A DNA stretch of 64,000 bases from Thermogutta terrifontis. Its GTDB lineage: Bacteria; Planctomycetota; Planctomycetia; Pirellulales; Thermoguttaceae. This document shows positions 58,496 to 64,000 of the stretch, one piece after another; position 1 is the first letter of the stretch, and every line of letters starts with the position of its first letter. The notes below the pieces were generated by a model that was given only the letters and a program-made list of their open reading frames with translations, was not told the DNA's origin and searched no databases. The translations under genes were made by a program, and so were the position numbers. The DNA is taken from positions 3,555,206-3,619,205 of the forward strand of contig NZ_CP018477.1 of assembly GCF_002277955.1 (NCBI RefSeq). The letters run 5' to 3'.

Positions 58496-59368
58496 TCAGC
58501 TGCTCTCCCGCGACGTGTGAAAAAGGGATCGCAAATAGCGTGCATTTTCGCGGTAGCAATCGACGATGGACCGTCCTTTGACGGTGGCGGCCTCAAGGAT
58601 GAGCCAGTCTGTATAGCCGATTTCCTGAAGGACGTCACGAATCTTTGGGAAGTCGATGGGACCTTGTCCGAGGAGATGGTCATACTCCTTGGTGTGGACC
58701 TGACAAATCCGTTCTCGACCGAGCCGGCGTAATTCAGCGAAAATGTCGTAACCGGCGTAGTGCATGTTTGCGACATCGTAGTACACCTGCACGGCTGGTG
58801 ATCCCACAGCATCCAGGATTTTGAGGTGGTCATCGACGTTGAGCATGCTTTCGATGCCCAGAATGACGCCCGCTTTCTCAGCCTTGGGGGCCAATCGCTT
58901 CAGCCTCCGAATCACTTCCGCCTGCAGGTCGGGTTGGTTCCGGATGTCTCCTTTACCGAAAAACGCGAGGAGTACGATTTTCTGGCCCATAGCCGCCATT
59001 ACGTCGATGCAGTCTGACACCCATTCTTCGGTTCGCGGGTCGCTGGCAAAGGGGATACTGTTGAGGATCCCCATGGCCAGGGACGCGATCTTCACGCCAG
59101 TTCGCCGGGAGGCCTCCTGGTATTGCTGGCGAACCTCCGGCTTGCGGAGATCGAACTCCTCACCGGGGGACCCGAAGCTGACCTGAACCCCATCCAGACC
59201 GATTTCCTTGGCCACTTCGAACGCGCGAGGGGTTTGTCGTGCCCCCAGAGACCAATCGCACGCCCCGATCGGATAGGCTGGGGCTGATTCGGCGAACGCC
59301 CGGTGGCCAGTAAACCGCCACGCAACGGCCCCACACAAACCGAGCATCAATCGACGTGAAATCCGCAT
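58496..59368 (-). CDS. Exported TIM-barrel sugar phosphate isomerase/epimerase family protein
   Basis: 290 residues. The N-terminus (MRISRRLMLGLCGAVAW) looks like a twin-arginine export signal. The xylose-isomerase-like barrel follows: VAKEIGLDGVQVSFG, LRKPEVRQQYQEASRRTGVKIASLAMG, ILGIESMLNVDDHLKILDAVGSPAVQVYYDVANMHYAG (metal-binding Glu/Asp/His region) and ICQVHTKEYDHLLGQGPIDFPKI. Members isomerise or epimerise sugars and often accompany Gfo/Idh enzymes such as the one at 23.6 kb. The substrate is not known. AAAGGG lies 7 bases before the ATG. Confidence 0.85.
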   Translation of the reverse strand: MRISRRLMLGLCGAVAWRFTGHRAFAESAPAYPIGACDWSLGARQTPRAFEVAKEIGLDGVQVSFGSPGEEFDLRKPEVRQQYQEASRRTGVKIASLAMGILNSIPFASDPRTEEWVSDCIDVMAAMGQKIVLLAFFGKGDIRNQPDLQAEVIRRLKRLAPKAEKAGVILGIESMLNVDDHLKILDAVGSPAVQVYYDVANMHYAGYDIFAELRRLGRERICQVHTKEYDHLLGQGPIDFPKIRDVLQEIGYTDWLILEAATVKGRSIVDCYRENARYLRSLFHTSRESS

Positions 59369-59626
59369 CGTTCAACCCTTTCAATTGGAGCGAAATAATG
59401 ATTCTCCTGCGATCGGTCTTGGAACGCGTATCAGTGTAGCGTTAACGGACAGCAGGGACCACCCGGCCTGCCCTCCAGATACGGACCTGACAAGCAGGTC
59501 CCTCCGAATATGGACATGACACGCGCGTCCCTCCGGGCTGAAGCTTGCACCTGCCGCCGGTGTTGTGGAGGTCCGTGCCACTTTCCAGCAGCAGAAAAGT
59601 GGGGAATGACTCACTCGTCGGGCGAC
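59369..59626. other. Spacer with hairpin repeats between the TIM-barrel gene and cimA leader
   Basis: Contains the two hairpin repeats at 59483-59536 and no coding frame that can be supported. Confidence 0.5.
59483..59536. repeat. Two tandem copies of the 7-5-7 hairpin repeat, reversed
   Basis: GGACCTG, ACAAG, CAGGTCC (59483-59501) is a perfect hairpin and the reverse complement of the GGACCTG-CTTGT-CAGGTCC form. A second, decayed unit (GGACATG, ACACG, CGCGTCC) starts 29 bases later at 59512. Each is followed by CTCCG. Confidence 0.75.
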
Positions 59627-59654
59627 TTGCCGATTCGGCACGGTGGGTTATACT
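59627..59654 (+). promoter_or_regulatory. Sigma-70-like promoter of the cimA leader
   Basis: TTGCCG (59627-59632) and TATACT (59649-59654) with a 16-base spacer. Transcription would start near 59661, just before the leader ribosome-binding site at 59673, giving a roughly 200-base leader up to the terminator. Confidence 0.5.
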
Positions 59655-59686
59655 TTAAGGAGTTACCACGCCAGGAGTTGAAAACC

Positions 59687-59779
59687 GTGTCTGCGAGTCA
59701 ACCCCTCTCAGCCGTTGATTATCCGCGCTGCGACGTCCTGAGCGTCGCCGCTCGGATTATTGGCATTATTATTGGCTGA
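59687..59779 (+). CDS. Isoleucine-rich attenuator leader peptide
   Basis: A 30-codon frame starting at GTG 59687, with AGGAG (59673-59677) 9 bases upstream. It ends ...AARIIGIIIG followed by TGA. Five of the last seven residues are Ile, all coded by ATT (59756-59761 and 59765-59773). It has the size, position and amino-acid bias of ilv/leu-type leader peptides, in front of a gene for the isoleucine pathway. Within it, GCGACG (59730-59735) and CGTCGC (59743-59748) form a hairpin suited to make polymerase pause. It has no other plausible coding role. Confidence 0.8.
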   Translation: MSASQPLSAVDYPRCDVLSVAARIIGIIIG

Positions 59780-59783
59780 GCAG

Positions 59784-59861
59784 GGGGACCGTGGGCCGGT
59801 AGTTTTTCAGAAACATCCCAAAGCCCTGAGGTCCCCAAAAACCTCGGGGCTTTTCGTTTTT
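59784..59861 (+). promoter_or_regulatory. Isoleucine-responsive transcription attenuator (antiterminator/terminator switch)
   Basis: GGGGACC (59784-59790, five bases after the leader stop) can pair perfectly with GGTCCCC (59830-59836). That pairing uses bases 59830-59832, which belong to the left arm of the terminator at 59823-59861, so the two structures exclude each other. A ribosome stalled on the Ile codons for lack of Ile-tRNA leaves 59784-59790 free and the antiterminator forms; a ribosome reaching the stop codon covers it and the terminator forms. This is the classic attenuation logic. Confidence 0.8.
59823..59861 (+). terminator. Intrinsic terminator of the cimA leader
   Basis: GCCCTGAGGT (59823-59832) pairs with ACCTCGGGGC (59841-59850) over ten pairs with one G-U; loop CCCCAAAA; T-run TTTTCGTTTTT follows. 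It lies about 100 bases before the cimA start. Confidence 0.9.
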
Positions 59862-59962
59862 GCCCACCGATCAAAACAAATCAACGAGAACCCACAAATT
59901 CCCAAGATTTTTTACGTTGCGTTTTGACACGGCCAATCAGCAGAAAGACCAGGAGAGACCTT

Positions 59963-61576
59963 ATGCGGAGGATTGAGATCTACGACACGACGCTCCGGGA
60001 CGGGGCGCAGGGGGAGGGGGTGAGTTTCTCGGCTTACGACAAGCTCCTGTTGACACGGCGGCTCAATGAGCTGGGATTTGATTACATTGAAGGGGGGTAT
60101 CCGGCCTCAAACGATAAGGACTTCGAGTACTTCCAGAAAGTGGCACAAATCCCCCTCGATAGATCTACCGTCGTGGCTTTCGGGATGACCCGACGGAAGG
60201 GTCTCGACGTGGCCCAGGATTCGGGGATTAAGTCCCTTCTTGAGGCGGGCACGAAAGTGGTCACGATCGTGGGAAAAGCCTCGGCTTTTCAGGCGGAGCA
60301 GGTCCTTCGCACAACCCGCGAAGAGAACCTCGCAATGATTACCGATACAATCAGTTATATTCGCTCCCAGGGACGGGAAGTAATCTTTGACGCCGAGCAC
60401 TTTTTCGACGGCTACAAATACGACAGCGACTACGCGCTGACAGCGGTGCGTTTAGCTGCGGAAGCTGGTGCTAAAATGGTCGTTCTGTGCGACACCAATG
60501 GGGGCAGTATGCCCGAGGAAGTAGCGGAAATCACAAGGAAGGTGGTGGAGCTGTTGCCGGTCCCGGTGGGTATCCATTGCCACAACGATTGCGATGTGGC
60601 GGTTGCTAACTCGCTCGCGGCCGTGGATGCAGGGGCAAGCCAGGTCCAGGGGACAATCAATGGCTTCGGGGAACGCTGCGGGAATGCCGACCTGATCTCC
60701 GTCATTGCAAACTTGCGACTGAAAAAAGGGTACGAGGTGCTGACGCCCGACGCCCTTCGCCATCTGACGGCCCTCTCCCGATTCGTTTACGAAATGGTGA
60801 ATATGCCCTATCGAAACAATCAGCCATACGTCGGAAGGAGCGCTTTTGCCCACAAAGGGGGGATGCACGTTAGTGGTGTTTCCCGAGTTCCCCAGAGTTA
60901 TGAGCACATTGACCCGCAATTAGTAGGAAATGAACGCCGAATCCTTGTCAGTGAGTTGTCGGGGCGCTCAAACATCATGGCGGCCACGGCAAAATTGAAT
61001 ATTCAGGCGGACCCAAAACTACTGGAGAGGATTCTGGCCAAGGTGGTGGCGAGAGAACATGCCGGGTACCAGTACGAGGCGGCCCAGGGATCTTTCGACC
61101 TCTTGGTCAAACAGTGCCTCGGGACGTTCAAGCCGCACTTTGAGCGACTGGCCTATCGCGTTAATATCGAAACAGAGAGTGACGGCCGCATTGTGACTGA
61201 GGCCACTGTGAAAATTCGGGTAGGAAACGAAATCCGCCACGAGGTGGCCGAGGGCGATGGCCCCGTGAATGCCCTTGACGCGGCGATGCGGAAAGCGCTC
61301 AATGGGACCTTCCCCAATCTTGCCAAAATGCATCTGGTGGATTACAAGGTGCGGGTCATCAACTCAGAAGCGGGGACCGCGGCTGGTGTGCGGGTAATGA
61401 TTGAAAGCCGCGATGAGACCGATTCCTGGGGCACGGTCGGGGTAAGCGAAAATATCATCGAGGCAAGTTGGATTGCTCTCGCCGATAGCTACGAGTACAA
61501 ACTCTGCAAGGACGAGGAACGAGAACAGCAGGCAAGGGAAAAGGTGGAAAATGTCGGAGCAAGCCGCGAACGGTAA
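59963..61576 (+). CDS. cimA: (R)-citramalate synthase
   Basis: 537 residues from ATG 59963, with AGGAGAGAC upstream; a start at 59924 is in frame but lies beyond the ribosome-binding site. The HMGL-like barrel opens with IYDTTLRDGAQGEGVSFSAYDKL, and AGAKMVVLCDTNGG and GIHCHNDCDVAVAN supply metal-binding His residues. The C-terminal LeuA regulatory dimer domain is at VNIETESDGRIVTEATVKIRVG. The DTTLRDGAQGEGVSFS form and the ending YKVRVINSEAGTAAGVRV are characteristic of citramalate synthases rather than 2-isopropylmalate synthase. CimA joins pyruvate and acetyl-CoA to give citramalate on the way to isoleucine. The Ile-type leader upstream supports this assignment. Its last 26 bases overlap the valS start. 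Confidence 0.9.
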   Translation: MRRIEIYDTTLRDGAQGEGVSFSAYDKLLLTRRLNELGFDYIEGGYPASNDKDFEYFQKVAQIPLDRSTVVAFGMTRRKGLDVAQDSGIKSLLEAGTKVVTIVGKASAFQAEQVLRTTREENLAMITDTISYIRSQGREVIFDAEHFFDGYKYDSDYALTAVRLAAEAGAKMVVLCDTNGGSMPEEVAEITRKVVELLPVPVGIHCHNDCDVAVANSLAAVDAGASQVQGTINGFGERCGNADLISVIANLRLKKGYEVLTPDALRHLTALSRFVYEMVNMPYRNNQPYVGRSAFAHKGGMHVSGVSRVPQSYEHIDPQLVGNERRILVSELSGRSNIMAATAKLNIQADPKLLERILAKVVAREHAGYQYEAAQGSFDLLVKQCLGTFKPHFERLAYRVNIETESDGRIVTEATVKIRVGNEIRHEVAEGDGPVNALDAAMRKALNGTFPNLAKMHLVDYKVRVINSEAGTAAGVRVMIESRDETDSWGTVGVSENIIEASWIALADSYEYKLCKDEEREQQAREKVENVGASRER

Positions 61577-64000
61577 TCAGACATCCAGTTTCATGAAGGA
61601 TCTGACAAAGCAGTACGACCCCAAGGTGGCCGAATCACGGTGGTATCCTTTTTGGGAGTCGCGCGGGTATTTTCATGCTGATCCGGATCCCAGTCGCACG
61701 CCCTATACCATCGTCATTCCGCCACCGAACGTTACTGGTGCACTTCATCTCGGCCATGCCCTCAACAATACACTTCAAGATATTCTCATTCGCATGAAGC
61801 GGATGCAGGGTTTTAATGCCCTGTGGATTCCCGGGACCGACCATGCGGGAATTGCCACCCAGGCGGTTGTGGAGCGTCGGCTTCTGGCCGAAGAAGGCAA
61901 GACGCGCCACGACGTGGGGCGGGAAGGACTGGTGGCGAGAATTTGGGCCTGGAAGGACGCCTACGAAAAAAGGATCCTGGATCAGCTCAAGCGGATGGGC
62001 TGCAGTTGTGATTGGCGGCGGACACGTTTTACCCTCGATCCCATTTGTGCGCGGGCGGTACGCCATACCTTCTTCCGCCTCTTTCGGGATGGACTCATCT
62101 ATCGGGGGCGACGCCTGGTGAATTGGGATACGCTTTTGCAGACGGCCGTTGCTGACGACGAAGTGTTCCACGAGCCGGTGCCCGGCCATTTCTGGTATTT
62201 CCGGTATCCCGTCATTGATCCTCAACCCGGCGAGCCGCAATATGTGACGGTGGCGACGACCCGACCCGAAACAATGCTCGGCGACACCGCGGTGGCCGTC
62301 CATCCCGATCCAGAAGCGGCCCTGGATAAGGCTGAGCGCGAGTTGCGGAAGCGGCTTAGCACGGCCGGTGAAAAGGAGCGCATCGAGCTGGAACGTGAAC
62401 TGGAGGATCTGCGAAAGCGGCGGCAGACACTCCTGCCCACACTCCTCAAATTGCGAGATATGGCCCGAGCGGGCCGAAAAGTGCTGCTCCCCCTGCAGAA
62501 CCGTCCGATTCCGCTCATCACCGATATTTGGGCCAAACCGGAAATGGGAACCGGTTGCGTGAAGATCACTCCCGCTCACGATCCCAACGACTACGAAGTG
62601 GCGCTGCGGCACAATTTGCCGATGATCAATATCCTCAACCTCGACGGGACGCTCAACGAAAACGCGGGCGCTTACAAGGGGCAGACAATCATGGAGGCCC
62701 GACAGAACGTGGTGGCGGACCTGGAGAAGCTCGGACTGGTTGAAAAGGTCGAAGAGCGGATCATCGACCTGGCCCACTCAGATCGGTCCAAGACCCCGAT
62801 CGAACCCCTGCTCACCGATCAGTGGTTCGTGAAGATGGAACGCCTGGCCCAGATGGCCATGGATGCGGTCATCGAGGGGCGGGTCCGGATAATTCCACCC
62901 CGCTACGCGAAAACATATCTCGACTGGCTCAGTGAAAAGCGGGACTGGCCGATAAGCCGGCAACTCTGGTGGGGCCATCAGATCCCTATCTGGTACTGCG
63001 ATACCGCCACCGAGAAAGAGTTGGAGGCCGCATTCGCGGGACGGGATGACGTGGTATGGCGCTGGGATGAGGAACATCGCCAGTGGCTTATCTGTGCCCT
63101 GGAAGATCTCCCTGCAGACGCTGTTCCCGGTCACACATTGCGTCGGGAGGAAGACGTACTGGACACGTGGTTCAGCTCCGCGCTGTGGCCGCACTCCACT
63201 CTCGGCTGGCCGGAAGATACGCCCGAGCTTCGCTATTTCTATCCCACGAACACGCTGGTGACCAGCCGAGACATCATCACGCTTTGGGTGGCGCGGATGG
63301 TGCTGGCCGGGCTTTACAACGTCGGAGAAGTTCCCTTCAGAGATGTGTACATTCACCCCAAAATCCTGGACGGTTACGGGGAAGGAATGTCCAAGTCCAA
63401 GGGGAATGGTGTTGATCCCGTGGACGTGATGGAAAAATTCGGGGCGGATGCGCTCCGCTACGGCCTGGCGTATCTGACCACGGAAACGCAGGACATCCGC
63501 ATGCCGGTGAGTTTCGAGTGCCCGCACTGCGGCCAGCTCATCGAGCAGACCCGCGAGAATAGAATTCTCCCGCGCATCACGTGCCCGCATTGTAAAAAAC
63601 CGTTCGCCACGCAATGGGCGGAAAAACCGGAGGACAAGGCCCTGCCGCGCGGCCCGGTCGTGAGTGAAAGGTTTGAACTGGCCCGCAATTTTTGTAACAA
63701 ACTGTGGAATGCGTCGCGGTTTGTCCTTCTCAACCTGGAAGGCTTTTCCCCGGGGACGGTGCGGCCAGACGAAATGTTGTTGGAAGATCGCTGGTTGCTG
63801 AGCCGCCTGGCGACGGTGGTCCAGCAGGTCACGGATCATCTGGAGAATTATCGCTTTTCGGATGCGGCGCGGACCCTCTACGATTTTGCCTGGGACGAAT
63901 TCTGCAGTTTCTATGTGGAAATGGTTAAGGTTCGGCTGCAAGCTGCGGAAAGCCGACCGCCGGCGCAGCGGCTGCTCGTCCACGGACTCGACACACTGCT
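61551..64000 (+). CDS. valS: Valyl-tRNA synthetase (truncated by window end)
   Basis: Open from ATG 61551 (AAGGTGG upstream) to the window edge: 816 residues of an expected 900-1000. It overlaps cimA by 26 bases, so the two genes are probably co-translated. The HIGH motif is HLGH at residues 66-69, in PPPNVTGALHLGHALNNT. The editing domain carries a coiled insertion (AELERELEDLRKRRQTL-like, residues 245-295). The catalytic domain ends with GMSKS at residues 612-616, with Gly in place of the first Lys of KMSKS. Unusually, a zinc ribbon follows before the anticodon-binding domain: Cys657, Cys660, Cys678 and Cys681. LARNFCNKLWNASRF then starts the helical anticodon domain. It charges tRNA-Val with valine. 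Co-location with cimA suggests shared control by amino-acid supply. Confidence 0.92.
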   Translation, partial: MSEQAANGNQTSSFMKDLTKQYDPKVAESRWYPFWESRGYFHADPDPSRTPYTIVIPPPNVTGALHLGHALNNTLQDILIRMKRMQGFNALWIPGTDHAGIATQAVVERRLLAEEGKTRHDVGREGLVARIWAWKDAYEKRILDQLKRMGCSCDWRRTRFTLDPICARAVRHTFFRLFRDGLIYRGRRLVNWDTLLQTAVADDEVFHEPVPGHFWYFRYPVIDPQPGEPQYVTVATTRPETMLGDTAVAVHPDPEAALDKAERELRKRLSTAGEKERIELERELEDLRKRRQTLLPTLLKLRDMARAGRKVLLPLQNRPIPLITDIWAKPEMGTGCVKITPAHDPNDYEVALRHNLPMINILNLDGTLNENAGAYKGQTIMEARQNVVADLEKLGLVEKVEERIIDLAHSDRSKTPIEPLLTDQWFVKMERLAQMAMDAVIEGRVRIIPPRYAKTYLDWLSEKRDWPISRQLWWGHQIPIWYCDTATEKELEAAFAGRDDVVWRWDEEHRQWLICALEDLPADAVPGHTLRREEDVLDTWFSSALWPHSTLGWPEDTPELRYFYPTNTLVTSRDIITLWVARMVLAGLYNVGEVPFRDVYIHPKILDGYGEGMSKSKGNGVDPVDVMEKFGADALRYGLAYLTTETQDIRMPVSFECPHCGQLIEQTRENRILPRITCPHCKKPFATQWAEKPEDKALPRGPVVSERFELARNFCNKLWNASRFVLLNLEGFSPGTVRPDEMLLEDRWLLSRLATVVQQVTDHLENYRFSDAARTLYDFAWDEFCSFYVEMVKVRLQAAESRPPAQRLLVHGLDTL

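Follow-up and report, generated by a model that had tools for sequence, protein, structure and literature searches.

Which signal decides whether the gene for citramalate synthase, cimA, is transcribed in Thermogutta terrifontis, and does the valyl-tRNA synthetase gene valS behind it obey the same signal? Both genes lie near the end of the window, the 64,000-nt stretch of DNA analysed here, which belongs to a genome consisting of a single contig of 4,810,751 bases. According to the earlier note, the region before cimA is an isoleucine attenuator made of a promoter candidate, an AGGAG site, a 30-codon ORF ending in Ile codons, an antiterminator, and a terminator. All of these parts are present in the sequence, and the reading itself gains support from comparison, namely from similar leaders in relatives and from covarying arms. 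Judged at this comparative level, the leader is very likely a classical ribosome-mediated transcription attenuator, as it combines a leader ORF with a Shine-Dalgarno site, a run of end-product codons, an intrinsic terminator, an antiterminator sharing bases with the terminator, and a strand 1:2 stem. Coordinates are collected in Table 1.

Table 1. Features of the cimA leader and the genes behind it (positions in the window).
Feature	Coordinates	Strand	Basis
Sigma-70-like promoter candidate, TTGCCG-N16-TATACT	59627-59654	+	sequence; also in near relative L084
-35 candidate, TTGCCG	59627-59632	+	sequence
-10 candidate, TATACT (spacer of 16 nt)	59649-59654	+	sequence
Shine-Dalgarno site of leader ORF, AGGAG, 9 nt 5' of GTG	59673-59677	+	sequence; also in L084
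Predicted leader peptide ORF MSASQPLSAVDYPRCDVLSVAARIIGIIIG, GTG start, TGA stop, 30 codons	59687-59779	+	sequence; Ile-rich leader ORFs in relatives
Control codons ATT ATT GGC ATT ATT ATT	59756-59773	+	sequence; single match in genome; ATT preference in leaders
Strand 1, partner of strand 2 (hairpin 59730-59748 at the tip of the 1:2 structure)	59702-59713	+	MFE fold; swap test in relatives
Strand 2 (antiterminator 5' arm at 59784-59790 and 59793-59796; paired with strand 1 at 59774-59786)	59774-59796	+	fold; covariation in relatives
Strand 3, arm shared by antiterminator (3' side, 59823-59826 and 59830-59836) and terminator (5' side, 59820-59832)	59820-59836	+	fold; covariation
Strand 4 and T-run of intrinsic terminator	59841-59861	+	dG -22.2, z -6.5; covariation in relatives
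cimA, citramalate synthase	59963-61576	+	NCBIfam TIGR00977, 692.6 bits (cutoff 450)
valS, valine--tRNA ligase	61551-64000, runs beyond the window	+	NCBIfam NF004349, 925.8 bits (cutoff 704)

The two genes overlap by 26 nt, and 183 nt separate the leader stop from cimA, with the terminator in between. The gene 5' of the leader (58496-59368, minus strand) is divergent, so the terminator cannot belong to it and serves nothing else on the plus strand; its product resembles sugar-phosphate epimerases and isomerases, with scores under every listed NCBIfam cutoff. Regarding the promoter candidate, scoring the best -35/-10 match out of 12 gives a mean of 9.41 across 51 leader loci, compared with 7.63 in shuffles.

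The leader ORF ends with ATT ATT GGC ATT ATT ATT GGC, i.e., five of its last seven codons are ATT. Its GTG start was selected by the AGGAG site, while the automatic procedure picked an upstream ATG giving 87 codons; automatic start choice is unreliable in general, as it returns 27-36 codons for 38 of 59 leaders and yet 87 for the leader of the window. The Ile run is not a chance feature. The pattern ATHATHNNNATHATHATH has a single match on both strands of the 4.8-Mb genome, which is this run, and at least 4 Ile in 9 codons are found in 1 of 32 comparably placed ORFs before terminators in the window (the leader ORF itself) and, for the flanks of 19 loci with planctomycete labels, in 1 of 120 ORFs of this kind. 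The last two Val codons of the leader precede the Ile run, so Ile is likely the main signal sensed here.

As for RNA structure, the terminator stem (59820-59832 with 59841-59853) is far more stable than shuffled sequences, and the fold of the whole leader (59661-59862) has a z-score of -6.8, compared with -2.7 for the antiterminator stretch 59780-59840. The antiterminator consists of two blocks: GGGGACC (59784-59790), complementary to GGTCCCC (59830-59836), and GGGC (59793-59796) facing GCCC (59823-59826), the latter added in this analysis. The pause hairpin proposed earlier at 59730-59748 does exist, but it does not stand on its own (z -1.1, not unusual) and instead forms the tip of a larger structure in which 59702-59713 pairs with 59774-59786. 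With this 1:2 stem and the second antiterminator block added, the leader has strands 1, 2, 3, and 4 of the classical design.

The predicted switch would work as follows. The leader peptide would be translated while RNA polymerase runs ahead. With ample charged Ile-tRNA (plus Val-tRNA in leaders carrying Val codons), the ribosome would get to the stop codon at 59777 and cover strand 2, the 3:4 terminator would form, and transcription would end before cimA. When charged tRNA is scarce, the ribosome would stall on the ATT run (59756-59773) with its leading edge short of 59784-59790, leaving strand 2 free to pair with strand 3, so that no terminator forms and cimA is transcribed; the overlapping valS would very likely be carried on the same RNA. 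If the leader is not translated at all, the 1:2 stem would hold strand 2 and termination would be the default. The spacing between the last Ile codon (59771), the stop, and the antiterminator arm would fit coverage of the arm by a ribosome at the stop codon and not by one at the control codons, assuming a typical ribosome footprint. The 3' end of strand 1 is 43 nt upstream of the first Ile codon, hence a stalled ribosome would not cover this strand, unlike in the Escherichia coli trp leader, where the stalled ribosome covers strand 1; the 1:2 stem could re-form around the stalled ribosome. Since many relatives in the class keep this design, these bacteria very probably sense amino-acid shortage through the speed of translation and switch the operon on in response.

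To assess conservation, cimA relatives were taken from a named collection and from whole genomes within the family, order, and class of T. terrifontis. The strongest terminator of each upstream region was selected without regard to ORFs, an ORF end was sought 45-100 nt before the T-run, and the stretch before the terminator was shuffled as a control. In a loose scan, 98 of 126 upstream regions contain a hairpin resembling a terminator. Among 89 terminator-bearing regions (of which L005 and L194, both negative, seem to be one record entered twice), 58 have a leader with at least 3 Ile in 9 codons, compared with a mean of 1.1 in shuffles. The same test yields 26 regions for Val (2.6 in shuffles), 19 for Ala (6.2), and 17 for Gly (5.8), with the remaining amino acids lower. 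For 45 of the 59 Ile leaders, the distance from leader stop to T-run is 55-70 nt. The peptides diverge except for their Ile/Val stretch and the tail, whose coding sequence also serves as antiterminator arm. Comparison supports both the leader and the identity of its control codons.

The element is scored as positive in 62 of 123 loci of the order, representing 16 of 19 families, with 28 of 70 in the family of the window (6 unscorable) and 34 of 53 in the other families (1 unscorable); loci at the level of order and class were hand-picked for spread among the matches listed, so these figures are not unbiased prevalences, and loci with short sequence or without the cimA motif are left out of some counts. 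Retention of the Ile run in relatives, whose loss was to count against the attenuator according to the earlier note, is thus clear from the excess over shuffles but not universal. While cimA is kept, the element is absent from all scorable loci of genus g21 (one of its 8 loci being unscorable) and genus g25 (7 loci), both of family f1, as well as from family f21 (0 of 15; L246-L259 and L265), where 2 loci have a terminator. Beyond the order, family f22 shows at least 3 Ile in 13 of 16 terminator-bearing regions. In family f23 (L226-L245), which belongs to another order, at least 3 Val are found in 13 of 15 leaders and at least 3 Ile in just 4 of 15; being Val-rich and not Ile-rich, these leaders indicate that the control amino acid moved between Ile and Val. 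The sensed amino acid thus seems to have shifted between the two across the class, and the putative sensor, taken over the whole class, reads Ile plus Val, with several clades having no element. Among the 80 named loci, a terminator together with an Ile/Val leader is found in 8, of which 7 are labelled as planctomycetes and 1 (L074) as Anaerolineae. The latter is the sole candidate for an Ile-rich leader with terminator outside the planctomycete-labelled loci and may be due to chance.

Codon choice in the leaders is also distinctive. ATT accounts for 169 of 223 Ile codons in leaders, compared with 304 of 1383 in the corresponding cimA genes; in the window, the run uses ATT for each of its five Ile codons, and the cimA gene behind it contains 13 ATT and 16 ATC. 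As a wobble-read codon, ATT could lengthen stalling.

According to visual inspection of alignment A1, most aligned leaders of the order contain approximately ATT ATT ATT, four further codons, and CGGCCG-stop-GGGC. This last stretch runs across the leader stop and serves as the 5' arm of the antiterminator, facing GCCCTGAGGCC, the terminator 5' arm. The window differs in having the leader stop upstream of the arm, with a similar geometry (last Ile codon at 59771, arm from 59784). Compensatory changes are seen in L172 (CGACCG/CGGTCG) and in the Gimesia-labelled L008 and L009 (CTTGAGG/CCTCAGG). A1 comprises 60 of 66 unique leaders, excluding L008, L009, and L010 (other groups) and L148, L149, and L176 (other layout). 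RNAalifold returned the terminator alone, as expected for mutually exclusive structures, and the antiterminator was for that reason evaluated as a named structure and by arm swapping. On A1, standard pairs make up 81.9% of the antiterminator, in which 32 cells show changes on both sides (14.6 in shuffles), and the corresponding figures for the terminator are 88.8% and 34 (10.3 in shuffles), whereas slid versions reach at most 58.7% and 58.0% pairing, respectively. Two of the five antiterminator measures on A1 (pairs changed on both sides and further pair types) do not exceed shuffles.

In the alignment-free swap test, in which the arms of each locus are compared with those of other loci, strand 2:3 pairing scores z -7.2 over 66 loci and z -7.5 over 28 further loci, a set of its own drawn from families f22 and f23 of other orders; leaders were admitted to both sets only when Ile- or Ile/Val-rich, so the tests concern the leaders found and not all genomes, and the z values cannot be read as exact probabilities given the common descent of the sequences. 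For 39 of the 66 loci, 2:3 pairing ranks in the best 5% of their own shuffles (the arm of the window itself was cut short by the script). That the two arms covary in relatives, as the earlier note expected of a genuine attenuator, is borne out by the A1 counts and by both swap sets, and comparison in this way favours mutually exclusive arms. As for strand 1:2, the swap test gives z -5.5 over 57 loci with limits that were widened after seeing the window fold and are thus tuned; a first test with narrower limits was weak (z -0.34), and comparison with shuffled strand 1 likewise gives a weak mean (z -0.63), with 13 of 57 loci ranking in the best 5%. This part of the classical set thus appears less firmly established than the other testable features.

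Other readings of the same region differ in what controls the terminator or in which genes respond. If a metabolite-binding riboswitch, a T-box, or a protein-bound leader were in charge and the ORF incidental, the terminator and the alternative pairing would look the same, and the unusually stable fold of the whole leader would fit as well. Such a switch, however, does not need what is conserved here, namely codon identity, the choice of ATT, and the distance to the leader stop, nor would it need Ile/Val, Leu, and aromatic leaders that each match the pathway behind them (see below). The Rfam searches at E ≤5 over 59000-60500 gave a single match, to a viral pseudoknot, which lies within cimA on the opposite strand and fails to reach its own threshold, and at gathering score the only match in 12 sources is a tRNA in L112, with no leader family and no T-box. 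This explanation is consequently regarded as very improbable. Even less credit is given to an ORF that couples translation to cimA or encodes a small functional protein, with termination unregulated. PMC4833913 does report a peak in leader-gene frequency shortly before structural genes in several phyla including Planctomycetes; against this reading, the leader stop here is separated from cimA by 183 nt with a terminator between them, and the peptides differ outside the Ile/Val stretch and the antiterminator-arm tail.

A more serious competitor to joint control of cimA and valS is that the attenuator controls cimA only, with valS having a promoter inside cimA and the gene order being coincidental. 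We consider this rather unlikely, and valS probably is under the same switch as cimA. valS was counted as next when a tblastn match fell between 120 nt upstream and 600 nt downstream of the cimA stop and no less than 140 nt of sequence could be searched, limits at which more distant copies may be missed; by this measure, 97 of the 170 loci with sufficient sequence have valS immediately after cimA. The cimA-only reading can point to 27 of 90 leader loci where valS does not directly follow and to 32 of 77 leaderless loci where it does. These same raw counts, which ignore kinship, nevertheless associate leaders with valS adjacency (63 of 90 versus 32 of 77), and the overlap of the two genes in the window also argues for joint control. 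The best evidence for valS being under the switch is that Val codons follow valS. At least 2 Val in 9 codons are present in 54 of 63 valS-linked leaders versus 9 of 27 unlinked ones, and among the 27 nearest pairs differing in valS the linked leader is richer in Val in 22, poorer in 3, and equal in 2. Linkage changes at least 21 times on the cimA tree. Using its supported branches, leaders with at least 2 Val go with valS in 6.7 and against it in 0.1 of 12 independent pairs (median p 0.016, range 0.008-0.22), with p-values of 0.375 for at least 1 Val and 0.0625 for at least 3 Val; the Ile count shows no link with valS in this test (p 0.73). The suggestion in the earlier note that valS is probably controlled too is thus strengthened by gene order and Val codons, with the tree result at p 0.016 for one of three thresholds. 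The pattern fits a leader that would sense Val-tRNA where valS is in the operon.

Compared with known systems, the closest are the ilvGMEDA, ilvBN, leu, and thr leaders of Proteobacteria, which are attenuators based on a run of codons in a leader peptide, the ilv leaders reading several amino acids. The cimA leader is like them in having a run of end-product codons, alternative strands, and a terminator, placed there before a branched-chain or threonine operon. It differs in belonging to another phylum, in controlling a citramalate synthase and presumably a tRNA synthetase, in matching no Rfam leader family, and in the antiterminator arm, which, by eye, spans the leader stop in most aligned planctomycete leaders of the order. 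T-box leaders bind tRNA directly and do not need leader translation. Like the predicted cimA switch, they sense tRNA charging through a terminator and an antiterminator; the cimA leader, however, has no T-box match in Rfam. T-boxes control genes for aminoacyl-tRNA synthetases and amino-acid metabolism (PMC2494555).

In Actinobacteria, short ORFs with Ile, Val, or Leu codons before terminators have been described in front of ilvB and leuA in PMC1262725 and PMC11857589, the former calling the exact mode of ilvB regulation unclear; the cimA leader is alike in these ORFs, while the genes and the phylum differ. The leader peptides of hisS and hisZ in bacilli, as outlined in PMC2965389, resemble it in preceding an aminoacyl-tRNA synthetase gene, but they use His codons, occur in Firmicutes, and lack the cimA-valS arrangement, in which the synthetase is second in the operon. 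That 2010 survey states that, to its authors' knowledge, leader-peptide systems had previously been shown just in Proteobacteria and Actinobacteria, atypical ermC aside, and adds Firmicutes. No report of amino-acid attenuators in Planctomycetota is found among the matches listed in our literature search, whose scope leaves most subscription literature and bioRxiv preprints outside. Thus, the mechanism is known, but no report was found for this phylum and these downstream genes.

Further leaders of this kind appear before other biosynthetic genes. A covariance model, R1, was built from A1. Its best match in the genome of the window is the cimA locus (E 5.8e-10), partly by construction since the window contributes one of its 60 rows. 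In ten other genomes R1 finds a match at E ≤0.1 in 9, and it also matches upstream regions of leuA and DAHP synthase genes. At least 5 Leu in 9 codons before a terminator are present in 17 of 20 hand-picked upstream regions of leuA-like genes of the family (L271-L290), including a near relative of the window genome, and the window genome itself has the Leu leader MKNICANLSLGLLLLPPT (L002) with a strong terminator approximately 600 nt before leuA (assigned by NCBIfam). Of the 10 other genomes, 7 have aromatic leaders such as YYWFYF, followed by a terminator and a DAHP synthase gene, and the window genome carries WSYYRFYF before its DAHP synthase gene (L293, G000:C1:2290333-2290405). The gene behind the aromatic leader is identified as DAHP synthase by NCBIfam in L293, L306, and L313, and by its start sequence in L303, L307, L309, L312, and L314. 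These leaders are candidate attenuators reading Trp, Tyr, and Phe codons together. In each of the three leader types (Ile/Val, Leu, and aromatic), the codons correspond to the end product of the downstream genes, with the Leu and aromatic counts given as such, without a shuffle control. The upstream regions of ilvB and trpE in the window genome contain no clear matching leader.

On balance we favour the view that Planctomycetia run a network of ribosome-mediated attenuators (Ile/Val for cimA-valS, Leu for leuA, and Tyr/Trp/Phe for DAHP synthase), in which cimA leader codons co-evolve with the operon, Val appearing and disappearing with valS, so that one leader would read the charging of both Ile-tRNA and Val-tRNA and put a synthetase and a biosynthetic enzyme under common control. 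If well supported, such a set in Planctomycetota would extend the known range of the mechanism, and leader codons changing along with the genes behind them offer a natural experiment. T. terrifontis has a closed genome and published RNA-seq, as stated in PMC5673643, which makes the idea testable soon. In addition, R1 has a weak match (E 0.011) elsewhere in the same genome (L292, G000:C1:1616363-1616416, minus strand), with no clear control codons and a strong terminator.
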